A stretch of 45,063 nt of DNA, taken from the NCBI GenBank assembly GCA_030431755.1, contig JAUIIK010000030.1:1-45063 (forward strand), read 5' to 3'. Each line of letters starts with the position of its first letter. The stretch's first letter is position 1. Source of the stretch: Chloroflexia bacterium. GTDB lineage: Bacteria > Chloroflexota > Chloroflexia > Thermomicrobiales > CFX8. A model generated the notes under the pieces. It was given only the letters and a program-made list of their open reading frames with translations, ran no database searches and had not been told where the DNA came from. This document shows, piece by piece, positions 10,000 through 13,916 of the stretch. A program made the position numbers and the translations under genes.

Positions 10000-10272
10000 A
10001 TGAATACTATTCCTGCCCGCGAGATCAAGCGGCGCGGGATAAGCGCCGTTGATGACCTGCTCGAACGAGGACCGGTCCACATCATCCAGTACGACGAACC
10101 GCGCTACGTTGTGCTGACCGAGGCGCGCTATCTGGCGCTCGTCGAAGCCGAGCAAGACGCGGCGATGGCCCGCCTCCGTGAGTCGGTCGCCGACTACGAA
10201 GCGGGACGATACACCACCTATGACAGCGCCGAAGATCTCATACGTGACCTCGACCTCGACGAGGACGAATGA
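10000..10272 (+). CDS. Type II antitoxin, Phd/YefM-like
   Basis: This 90-residue protein has the Phd/YefM-type N-terminal layout (IPAREIKRRGISAVDDLL, then YVVLTEARYLALVE) for DNA binding and dimerisation. It is followed by an acidic, probably flexible C-terminal tail (DLDLDEDE) that would wrap the toxin. AAAGGAG precedes ATG 10000. Its stop overlaps the start of the toxin gene (ATGA), the usual coupling of antitoxin before toxin. Subfamily assignment is by pattern only. Confidence 0.82.
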   Translation: MNTIPAREIKRRGISAVDDLLERGPVHIIQYDEPRYVVLTEARYLALVEAEQDAAMARLRESVADYEAGRYTTYDSAEDLIRDLDLDEDE

Positions 10273-10547
10273 CCTGGACGATCATCGCGACAGCGCGCTT
10301 CAAACGGCGCGCCAGACGTCTCCGGAGCGGCGATCCGATCCTACGGCGGCGCATCGATCAAACGCTCCAGGACCTCGCTGTTGACCCGCAGCAACCAAGC
10401 CTCAGATTGCATAAGCTCCACGGGCCGTTAGAGGGCTTCAGCGCCGTCGCGGTCGACTATGACAACCGCATCCTGTTGACGGTGGAGTTCACTGAACGCG
10501 AGATCATCCTCCACGACATCGGCAGCCACGACGAGGTCTACCGCTAG
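10269..10547 (+). CDS. Type II toxin, RelE/ParE superfamily
   Basis: The 92-residue basic protein shows the RelE/ParE order: an N-terminal basic helix pair (ARFKRRARRL), a Leu-rich middle, then strands ending in LLTVEFTEREIILHDIGSHDEVYR, like YafQ/RelE mRNA-cleaving toxins. The C-terminal HDIGSHDEVY is typical of the YafQ/RelE branch. It overlaps the antitoxin gene by four bases. Whether it cleaves mRNA or hits gyrase cannot be decided from sequence alone. Confidence 0.82.
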   Translation: MTWTIIATARFKRRARRLRSGDPILRRRIDQTLQDLAVDPQQPSLRLHKLHGPLEGFSAVAVDYDNRILLTVEFTEREIILHDIGSHDEVYR

Positions 10548-10864: not shown

Positions 10865-11629
10865 TTAGAGCATCAGGAGCGCGGAGCGCACCGAACTTGT
10901 GAAGAGCTCGGGTTCGTCGATGACCGGCGCGAACTGGGCCAGGCGCTCGAACTGGTTGGTCAGCAGCAGCACCCCGACGACAATCAAGAAGACGCCAGAC
11001 ACAGCCGAGACCGCGCCCAGGTGCTGGTTCATCTTGCGTAGGAGCGGCGTGATCCAGCCAAAGGCCAACGCCGTGATGATGAACGGGATACCCAGGCCGA
11101 CGGCGTAGAAGAAGAAGAGCACCCCGGCTCGCGCACCCTGCGTCGCGGCAATCGCGAAGATGCCGGAGAGAATCGCGCCGACGCAGGGACTCCAACCAGC
11201 CGCGAAGAAGACGCCGAGCAGAAACGACGACGTAAGCCGGCCGCGCGGCAGCTTGTCCTCGGCGGAGACCTTGGCCTGGCGTTCGAGGAACGGGATCTTG
11301 ATCAGGCCGATGGTGTGAACGCCTAGGACGATGACGGCGATGCCGCCGAACCAGCGGATGTAGTCGAGCCCCTGTTGCCAGCGTTCGAGAAACTGGCCGA
11401 CGGCGATGCCGAAGACGGTGAAGAGCACGGCAAACCCGAGCACGAAGGCCAGCGAGTGCATCAGCAGCTGCCGGCGGGGTGGTGTGTTGCTGCCGCTGAC
11501 GATCGTGCCGGTCAGGTAGCCGAGATAGCCCGGTACCAGCGGCATCACGCAGGGTGAGATGAAGGAAAGCAGTCCACCGATTACCGCGATGAACGCGGCG
11601 AAGACCAGCGGCGCTTCGGTAACGGTCAT
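10865..11629 (-). CDS. ccdA: CcdA/DsbD-type transmembrane thiol-electron carrier
   Basis: The 254-residue protein has six to seven membrane helices and the two conserved helix cysteines of the CcdA family, in SPCVMPLVPGYLGYLTG near the N-terminus and in GWSPCVGAIL in the middle. CcdA proteins take electrons from cytoplasmic thioredoxin and pass them to thioredoxin-fold proteins on the outer face of the membrane, usually for cytochrome c maturation. It is the last gene of the operon 36 nt after three thioredoxin-like lipoprotein selenoproteins, which makes them its natural electron acceptors. No cytochrome c genes are nearby. Confidence 0.92.
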   Translation of the reverse strand: MTVTEAPLVFAAFIAVIGGLLSFISPCVMPLVPGYLGYLTGTIVSGSNTPPRRQLLMHSLAFVLGFAVLFTVFGIAVGQFLERWQQGLDYIRWFGGIAVIVLGVHTIGLIKIPFLERQAKVSAEDKLPRGRLTSSFLLGVFFAAGWSPCVGAILSGIFAIAATQGARAGVLFFFYAVGLGIPFIITALAFGWITPLLRKMNQHLGAVSAVSGVFLIVVGVLLLTNQFERLAQFAPVIDEPELFTSSVRSALLML

Positions 11630-11665: not shown

Positions 11666-12265
11666 CTACGCTCCCAGTGCCTGTTCGATAAGCTCGGGAG
11701 CTTGGCCATCCGTCACTTTGCCGACGCCGCGCCCACCGAGTGAACCGTCGGCGTTGATGAAGGCCCAGGATGGGTAGGCGCGCATCCCGTAGGCGTCCCA
11801 GGTATCGCGGTCGCTATCCTCGGCGATCAGGTAGTTGATACCAAGCTCATCGACGGTGTTGCCAAGCGGACCGAGGATCGTCTGACGGCTGACGCCGATA
11901 ACGGTCAACCCGTCGGGGCCGTACTGCTCGTGCCACGCGTTCAAGGCCGGAACCTCCGACCGGCATGTCGTTCAGTAATCCGCCCAGAAGACGAGCAGCA
12001 CCGGTGAGCCGCGCAGCTCGGAAAGGCTCGTCGCGCTGCCGTTGTACCAGTTATCAATCGTCCCAATCTCCGGCGCGAGGTCGGCGGCTACCTGCTCTGC
12101 GCCACTATTCGACGACGCCGCTGGCTTGGACTGCTCAACGTCACCGCCGTCATCGCCACAGGCCGCTAACAGCGGAACAATTAGCGCCAGCGCAATGCCT
12201 ACGGCGAACCAGCGTCGCAAGCCTGTACCCATCTTCCTCTGCCTTTCACGTCGTGCAATGCTCAT
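11666..12265 (-). CDS. Selenoprotein: TlpA/thioredoxin-like lipoprotein with UxxC (copy 1, in-frame TGA)
   Basis: The reading frame runs through TGA 11974-11972 (codon 98) to a stop at 11666, giving 199 residues. A lipoprotein signal ends in PLLAAC (Cys36). A Ser/Ala linker leads to LRGSPVLLVFWADY-U-TTC-RSEVPALN, which aligns with the FWAxWCxxCRxExP active site of TlpA/ResA proteins, Sec taking the place of the first Cys. The rest completes the fold (GVSRQT; cis-Pro in AYPSWAFI). The ATG overlaps the TGA stop of copy 2 (ATGA), so translation is coupled. A conventional gene caller would give two fragments, 12265-11972 and 11944-11666. The likely role is an extracytoplasmic disulfide reductase or peroxide-linked thiol enzyme fed by CcdA. 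Selenocysteine itself is inferred, from motif, hairpin and three-fold recurrence. Confidence 0.87.
11945..11961 (-). promoter_or_regulatory. SECIS-like hairpin of selenoprotein copy 1
   Basis: Just after the TGA codon the mRNA can fold GGUCGGA-GGU-UCCGGCC: seven pairs with one U-G wobble around a GGU loop. The loop starts 17 nt after the TGA. Bacterial SECIS elements (for example E. coli fdhF) have a short apical hairpin with GGU in the loop at about this distance, read by SelB. Compared with copies 2 and 3, one base differs in the 3' arm and pairing is kept through the wobble. Confidence 0.7.
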
Positions 12266-13209
12266 GAGAGCTTGGCCAGTTCCTGTTCGATGAGTTCGAT
12301 TGCTGCGTCAACGATCACGATGCCAACCTGCCGGTGGATAAGCTCGCCTTCGGCGCTGATCATCGCCCAGGAAGGGTAGAAACGCATGCCATAAGCATCC
12401 CAGGTATCGCGGTCCTCATCGACGGCGACGGGGTAGGTAATGCCAAGCTCAGCGATGGTGTCGTCCATCGGTCCGCGCGTCAGATGCTGGCTGACGGCAA
12501 TGATCTGCAAGCCCTCGGCCCCATACGAAGCCTGCCACGCATTCAGGGTCGGAACCTCCGACCGGCAGACCGGTCAGTAGTCCGCCCAGAAGACGAGCAG
12601 GACTGGCGTGCCACGCAGCGCATCGAGCGACAGCGGCGCGCTGTTGTGCCATGAGTCAATTGAACCGATCTCCGGTGCGGGATTCTCCGGTTCGGGCGGT
12701 GGCTCGGGCGTCGGTGTCGGCTCCGGCAACGGTGTTGGCTCAGGTGTCGCCGTGGGCGCGGCAGTCGGAGGCGGCTCAGGTGTCGCGGTTGACTCTGGCG
12801 TAGCCACTGGCACAGTCGGGGTGGGCGGCACGGTTGGCGCGTCAGCGACGGTCGCCGTTGGCGAGAGTGGTTCCGGCGACGGCATGAGCGTCTCGGCAGT
12901 AGTCGGCGCTGGCACTGATGGTTCAGCGGACACAGTAGCGTCGTCGATAGCTGTCGGCGTCGGCGTCACAGGTTCGGGTGGCTGACTGGTCGCAGTTGAC
13001 GCAGGCACAGGAGTGGATGTCGCAGTGCCAATTGCTGCTGTTGCGGTGGCCTGTGGCTGCTGGGCGCTTTCGTCAGCTGCTGGCGCGTCGTCACCACTGC
13101 CGCAGGCTGACAGGAGCGGGAGCAATAGCCCGCACACCGCCGCGGCGCACAACCACCGGGCAGCACGCCCGCGCAGCTTTGAGATCGGTTCTCGGCTTCT
13201 CTCCGGCAT
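12262..13209 (-). CDS. Selenoprotein: TlpA/thioredoxin-like lipoprotein with UxxC and long Pro/Thr linker (copy 2)
   Basis: Read through TGA 12576-12574 (codon 212) this gives 315 residues. The N-terminus has a lipobox PLLSAC (Cys36). About 140 residues of Pro/Thr/Glu-rich low-complexity linker follow (PTPTPEPPPEPE-like), likely a stalk through the cell wall. The thioredoxin domain has LLVFWADY-U-PVC-RSEVPTLN, then QIIAVSQ, DRDTWDAYGMRFYPSWAMI with the cis-Pro, and ends ELAKLS. The ATG (13209) overlaps the stop of copy 3 (TGATG) and its own stop overlaps the start of copy 1 (ATGA). The downstream half is 70-80% identical by eye to copy 3, although the linkers are unrelated. Without recoding, both halves look broken. 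Confidence 0.87.
12547..12563 (-). promoter_or_regulatory. SECIS-like hairpin of selenoprotein copy 2
   Basis: The mRNA has the perfect seven-pair stem GGUCGGA/UCCGACC around a GGU loop, with the loop starting 17 nt after the TGA, the same spacing as in the other two copies. This block also encodes SEVP, so it is constrained at both protein and RNA level. Confidence 0.7.
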
Positions 13210-13916
13210 CAGGAAATCTTCGCCAGTTCCTGCTCGATGAGCATGACGGCATCGTCGGTGGCGACATTGCCGACCTGACGGTGGACCAGCTCACCTTCCG
13301 GGCTGATGACCGCCCAGGAAGGATAGAAGCGCATCCCGTAGGCGTCCCAGGTGTCTTTGTCCTCGTCAACCGCGACCGGATAGGTGATGCCGAGTTCGGC
13401 GATGGTGTCGTCCATCGGGCCGCGGGTGAGGAATTGACTGACGGCGACGATCTTGAGTCCCTGCTGGCCGTAGCCGGCCTGCCATTCAATCAGGGTCGGA
13501 ACCTCCGACCGGCAGATCGGTCAGAAGTCGGCCCAGAAGACGAGCAACACCGGCGAGCCGCGCAGCCCCGCCAGCGTCAATGGTTCGCTGTTGTGCCAGG
13601 AATCGATTGAGCCGAACTCGGGCGCGGGGTCGGCCGGTTCAGCCTCTTCGTCCGACATCGCTTCGGTCGGTCCGGCTGGCTCAGGAATTGTCGCATCCCC
13701 CGGCATGTCGCCGGGATCATCATCAGACATCGCCGCATCGGGCTCCGTCGCTGGCACGTCCTCCATGTCGCTCGTCGCGACTGGTTGCGCTCCGGGGTTT
13801 GTGTCATCACTGGAGGCGTCGTCGGCGCTGTCGCCGCAGGCAGCTAGTGCCAGCGAGAGCACCAACAGGACCACGGTCGCGGTGGTGAATCGGTTGAAGA
13901 AGCCAGCCACGTTCAT
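13209..13916 (-). CDS. Selenoprotein: TlpA/thioredoxin-like lipoprotein with UxxC (copy 3, first in operon)
   Basis: Start ATG 13916 has GGGAG just upstream and opens a lipoprotein signal ending in LALAAC (Cys27); an in-frame start at 13949 is less likely. Reading through TGA 13523-13521 (codon 132) gives 235 residues. After an acidic Asp/Ala/Pro linker the domain has LLVFWADF-U-PIC-RSEVPTLIEW, then KDTWDAYGMRFYPSWAVI with the cis-Pro, ending ELAKIS. It is the first gene of the run copy 3 - copy 2 - copy 1 - ccdA; the promoter should lie in 13917-14126, shared divergently with the enoyl-CoA hydratase gene. TGA is a true stop elsewhere here, including at this gene's own end, so general recoding as Trp is excluded. 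Confidence 0.87.
13494..13510 (-). promoter_or_regulatory. SECIS-like hairpin of selenoprotein copy 3
   Basis: The mRNA has the same perfect seven-pair stem GGUCGGA/UCCGACC with a GGU loop as copy 2. The loop starts 17 nt after the TGA. The upstream linker of this gene bears no resemblance to that of copy 2, so identity is concentrated around the recoding site and downstream domain. Confidence 0.7.

Follow-up and report, generated by a model that had tools for sequence, protein, structure and literature searches.

Three tandem TlpA/ResA-like lipoprotein genes with in-frame TGA codons, adjacent to ccdA in a Chloroflexia bacterium, are probable selenoprotein genes

The minus strand of the window (the whole 45,063-nt stretch of Chloroflexia DNA analyzed here) carries three consecutive ORFs, at 13916-13209, 13209-12262 and 12265-11666, each interrupted under the standard code by a single in-frame TGA and each running open to a normal stop once that TGA is translated as U. 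Together they span exactly the 11666-13916 interval in which a first-pass annotation had proposed three tandem thioredoxin-like lipoproteins, and lipoboxes and Pfam domains that fit such proteins are present. From translation and Pfam matches, the products would be TlpA/ResA-like selenolipoproteins of 235 aa (copy 1, 13209..13916, with U132-P-I-C), 315 aa (copy 2, 12262..13209, with U212-P-V-C and a long Pro/Thr-rich linker) and 199 aa (copy 3, 11666..12265, with U98-T-T-C). The TGA codons lie on the minus strand at 13521..13523, 12574..12576 and 11972..11974, within FWADFUPICRSEVPTL, FWADYUPVCRSEVPTL and FWADYUTTCRSEVPAL, respectively (TGA=U). In all three translations the TGA occupies the column of the first Cys of the thioredoxin CxxC, giving the UxxC motif previously suggested, and DTWDAYGMRxYPSWA follows downstream of U before the normal stop, so that the earlier reading of a conserved fold beyond the TGA also stands. 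In the core domain, copy 1 shares 79% identity with copy 2 and 55% with copy 3. The stop of one gene overlaps the start of the next (TGATG for copies 1/2, ATGA for copies 2/3), which suggests translational coupling. All three N-termini bear a lipobox (LAAC, LSAC and LAAC in copies 1 to 3), recognized by eye in the translated sequence as the pattern [LVI][ASTVI][GAS]C rather than with a signal-peptide predictor, and on this pattern the three products are classed as lipoproteins.

Membership of the TlpA/ResA/Redoxin thioredoxin-fold group is indicated by both domain matches and structural modeling. The top Pfam domains of the three copies are AhpC-TSA and Redoxin, at 51.8-62.4 bits against gathering thresholds of 26/26.6, and AlphaFold2 predicts a confident thioredoxin fold (pLDDT 90.7). 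The best PDB match of the model is the C-terminal domain of M. tuberculosis DipZ (2hyx, 5cyy; TMq 0.90); further matches are to ResA (0.80-0.83) and pneumococcal Etrx2, and CcmG/DsbE are also relatives. At the level of curated NCBIfam models, none reached its cut-off, either for the three proteins or for the relatives tested. The ResA model (NF002854) gave 61-69 bits against a cut-off of 170; NF041057, the Rcas_1661 selenolipoprotein, matched copy 1 at 21.0 bits against 190 and copies 2 and 3 not at all; and NF041054 (ResA-like WAxxUGC motif protein; WAxxUGC_long) gave 36-39 bits against 300, the motif here being UxxC.

Among about 100 relatives searched, seven further genomes proved to carry a homologue, each with an in-frame TGA at the identical column, which makes ten loci in eight genomes. 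The carriers span two families of one order: the family of the host (G001 and G002) and a second one (five genomes of genus g16). In a phylogenetic tree, the nine full-length U sequences (the ten members minus that of G001) form one clade with support of 100/100, apart from the Cys homologues. The next full-length homologues, drawn from the wider class and phylum, score no more than 114 bits versus at least 221 for the U clade, and in most of these the TGA column holds Cys (FWTxxCxxC), as a selenoprotein interpretation had led one to look for. Searches further afield returned no relatives in viral contigs and, in contigs of named genomes, a single weak match, to Bacteroidota. The homologue in G001 (L055 8647-8957) keeps the TGA and the hairpin described below; about 40 residues are missing and there is a frameshift, which reflects either real decay or the assembly collapse of a tandem array. 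Because the relatives carry one copy per genome versus three in the window, the triplication looks, from these sequences, specific to the host lineage. The tree joins copies 1 and 2 as sisters (98/96) and places copy 3 without resolution; as copy 3 could be older than the divergence from G002, the case for a lineage-specific triplication is only partial. The copies would have arisen by tandem duplication, with at least the last duplication probably having occurred within the host lineage.

Ten nucleotides past the UGA, in all ten members, begins a putative SECIS apical hairpin. Most members have the form seen in copy 1, GGUCGGAGGUUCCGACC (13494..13510, minus strand, in a whole element at 13523-13476); the hairpin of copy 2 lies at 12547..12563 (element 12576-12529), and that of copy 3, GGUCGGAGGUUCCGGCC, at 11945..11961 (element 11974-11927), both also on the minus strand. 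In most members there is a lower helix, CUGCC/GGCAG. The published bacterial SECIS constraints are a loop of 3-9 nt, a stem of 4-16 bp, a spacing of 16-37 nt, an energy of ≤ -7.5 kcal/mol and a G within the first two loop positions (PMC13188914). Here the loop starts 16-17 nt past the UGA and fits the published N1-G-[G/U]-N-N2, and in a direct test all the constraints were satisfied by 10/10 UGA members versus 2/27 Cys homologues. Moreover, the exact pattern TGA-N6-TGYCGGTCGGAGKTTCCG, with zero mismatches, occurs at ten sites in 158 genomes of the class, all of them members of this gene family, which argues against chance.

The hairpin also appears to be under selection as nucleic acid. When codons were resampled synonymously, an equally stable apical hairpin arose in 0.2-1.6% of trials; the whole 48-nt element was only weakly unusual (4-36%), and hence the signal sits in the apical hairpin. 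Among the nine full-length sequences, the same residue is encoded by the identical codon in 86% of cases at codons +5 to +11 versus about 41-56% outside the element. Of the 38 invariant degenerate residues, 5 have a frozen codon, and 4 of these are in the hairpin (+4, +5, +6 and +8), with synonymous change outside the hairpin near saturation. One-sided changes were seen in the hairpin base pairs, and no double compensatory changes were found among the members. A SECIS-type hairpin, for which the first-pass annotation had proposed a search, is thus present at all three sites, and the frozen hairpin codons supply a SECIS test, run on an alignment, that would be applicable to further candidates.

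The host has the machinery for Sec insertion. Its 5.1-Mb genome (97% complete, 272 contigs) encodes a tRNA-Sec that scores 78 bits, above the Rfam cut-off, with ARAGORN in agreement, together with SelB (318 bits), SelA (506 bits) and SelD (363 bits), all exceeding curated cut-offs; the set of genes that had been named for checking is therefore complete. SelD is of the Sec type, with its own Sec-UGA at the usual place (TAGUASK). Among the seven other carriers, the search found no tRNA-Sec match in two, G030 (87% complete) and G038 (84%), assemblies of about 500 contigs, and the missing matches are probably assembly gaps. More broadly, tRNA-Sec is widespread in the class, being present in 52/62 good-quality genomes in a search over 101 relatives; by contrast, both genomes of genus g4, which belongs to the family of the host, lack a tRNA-Sec match as well as the selenolipoprotein. 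The host also has three further thioredoxin-fold genes with an in-frame TGA. One is the gene of a UINC protein: its product has a long C-terminal extension, which we read as NHLRC2-like, and the TGA lies at FWT(Y/F/S)xUINC; G180, G053 and G001 have counterparts with the same features. The other two are WxSWUGC genes, again with long C-terminal extensions, and are probably known UGC-type TlpA selenoproteins.

On this sequence evidence it is very likely that the three paralogues are selenoprotein genes in which UGA is read as Sec, and every test that had been named as capable of overturning this interpretation was run without doing so. From the perspective of the standard code, the TGA interruption in each ORF could instead mark pseudogenes, in which a nonsense mutation was spread by tandem duplication and the N-terminal fragments alone are made, and the internal deletion and frameshift in G001 are what one would expect of such decay. 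However, the same TGA is retained in eight genomes, exactly at the catalytic Cys and ahead of a SECIS hairpin. For close pairs, dN/dS after the element is 0.06 between copies 1 and 2 and 0.07-0.11 within genus g16, similar to the 0.03-0.10 before the TGA, these values being rough because synonymous distances are high. Purifying selection past the TGA implies that the downstream part is translated and rules out decay, in keeping with the earlier argument that a TGA held at one column cannot be random. The selection pattern refutes the pseudogene explanation, to which we give next to no credence. Equally improbable is that UGA is decoded as Cys or Trp, whether through an altered code or near-cognate readthrough. 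Whatever amino acid TGA specified, the frame would stay open, but copies 1 and 2 themselves terminate at TGA, so that UGA is still a stop elsewhere, probably within the same transcript; the complete Sec machinery and the frozen hairpin likewise oppose it. The least credible notion is a sequencing or assembly artefact. The host genome is indeed an assembly of many contigs, but the same TGA recurs at ten independent loci, seven of them in other genomes, and the copies in the window differ elsewhere. Hence pseudogenes, code change and assembly error were all rejected on the evidence of conservation, selection, machinery and SECIS.

The best clue to the function of the three probable selenoproteins is the adjacent gene, which the first-pass annotation did not mention. 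The gene immediately downstream of copy 3, 36 nt after its stop, is ccdA (10865..11629, minus strand, 254 aa), a DsbD-type transmembrane electron conduit by its Pfam DsbD_TM match (74.4 bits, cut-off 27.1). A single selenolipoprotein gene followed by ccdA is also found in G002 and G001. In genus g16, where some contigs are short, no ccdA adjoins the single-copy gene, which means that ccdA is not an obligatory neighbor; a CcdA partner may be encoded elsewhere in those genomes. In family f34 (G353, G262 and G188; L120-L122), pairs of UxxC lipoprotein genes on opposite strands adjoin ccdA, with the motifs FWTYTUPVCRSEIPS and FWTYTUPVCRGEIPS. By the tree, these proteins are of different ancestry; family f34 is a separate lineage of the phylum, and its pairs form a parallel case, of independent derivation, in which more than one selenolipoprotein accompanies CcdA.

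In S. pneumoniae, two surface lipoproteins receive electrons of cytoplasmic thioredoxin by way of CcdA (PMC3914529). With the pneumococcal CcdA-Etrx system as model, gene order and fold make it reasonably likely that a CcdA relay feeds the selenolipoproteins. The operon would then comprise the three paralogous selenoproteins and CcdA. SelB would bring Sec-tRNASec to each in-frame UGA, directed by the hairpin, a step for which the sequence evidence is strong; the products would be exported, lipidated at the lipobox Cys and anchored to the outside of the cytoplasmic membrane. In this setting, as motif and predicted fold suggest, a Sec-x-x-Cys redox site would replace Cys-x-x-Cys in the thioredoxin fold. 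Electrons of cytoplasmic thioredoxin may cross the membrane through CcdA to reach these proteins, which, with Sec as the attacking residue, may reduce oxidized extracytoplasmic targets: disulfides, sulfenic acids, methionine sulfoxide reductases or peroxides. A further step, that the single CcdA serves all three Sec lipoproteins and that these have diverged toward different oxidized targets, as a dedicated extracytoplasmic selenium-based reducing array, is put forward only tentatively. Were it true, CcdA-fed selenothioredoxin lipoproteins would be a recurrent solution, with more than one origin in the phylum.

The proteins might instead be selenoproteins that work without CcdA, as independent thiol/seleno-peroxidases or as reductases of cytochrome c maturation of the ResA/CcmG type. 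AhpC-TSA and Redoxin as top domains, the structural kinship to ResA and CcmG/DsbE, and the g16 homologues without adjacent ccdA all fit such roles. The active site, however, is the UxxC of TlpA/ResA rather than the TxxC/U of peroxiredoxins; no cytochrome c maturation gene is among the neighbors scanned, which cover part of the window; and ccdA recurs beside UxxC lipoproteins in two separate lineages. We consider these CcdA-independent roles a good deal less probable than the relay, while still a serious alternative.

How far the arrangement is new depends on the level of comparison. M. tuberculosis DipZ, the closest solved structure of the thioredoxin domain, also has a membrane domain that resembles CcdA; it is a single CcdA-TlpA fusion with Cys, whereas here a separate ccdA accompanies three Sec lipoproteins. 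The active site of pneumococcal Etrx, too, has Cys and not Sec. The CcdA1/2-Etrx1/2-MsrAB2 system (PMC3914529) resembles the present one in encoding surface thioredoxin-fold lipoproteins with ccdA, but with one lipoprotein per ccdA versus three here and with a known partner, MsrAB2. Among selenoproteins, Table 1 of a 2026 review (PMC13188914) lists under UxxC a "Redoxin family protein" (PF08534), a "Prx-like thiol:disulfide oxidoreductase" (PF00578) and a "Thiol-disulfide isomerase-like protein" (cd02966). These TlpA-like proteins share with the copies in the window the Pfam families and Sec at the first active-site position; compared by description only, none was found described as a tandem triplet with ccdA. 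The Rcas_1661 family (NF041057), which appears as DsbG-like in the same review, is likewise an exported Sec-containing thioredoxin-like lipoprotein, and the NF041054 proteins are ResA-like selenoproteins that differ in having UGC rather than UxxC. SAO and Tso are multi-selenoprotein operons (PMC13188914), with several selenoprotein genes per operon as here, but of different families rather than three paralogues. The first-pass suggestion of novelty thus survives in part. Our literature search, with limited coverage of subscription journals, returned no paper on a tandem run of TlpA-type selenoproteins, and the three-in-a-row arrangement and the subfamily appear uncatalogued, but the UxxC TlpA-like class and multi-selenoprotein operons had already been described.

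In practical terms, a well-supported selenoprotein subfamily is added that lies outside all the NCBIfam models tested, and annotation by those models would probably yield truncated fragments. The locus is also a clear-cut setting in which to ask why selenium is retained outside the cytoplasm: its three paralogues, in one operon and next to an evident source of electrons, have all kept Sec and a SECIS element each. Elsewhere in the window, a small ORF at 10269-10547 has a sub-threshold match to the YafQ toxin (26 vs 30 bits) and is preceded by an overlapping 90-aa ORF, a possible toxin-antitoxin pair.
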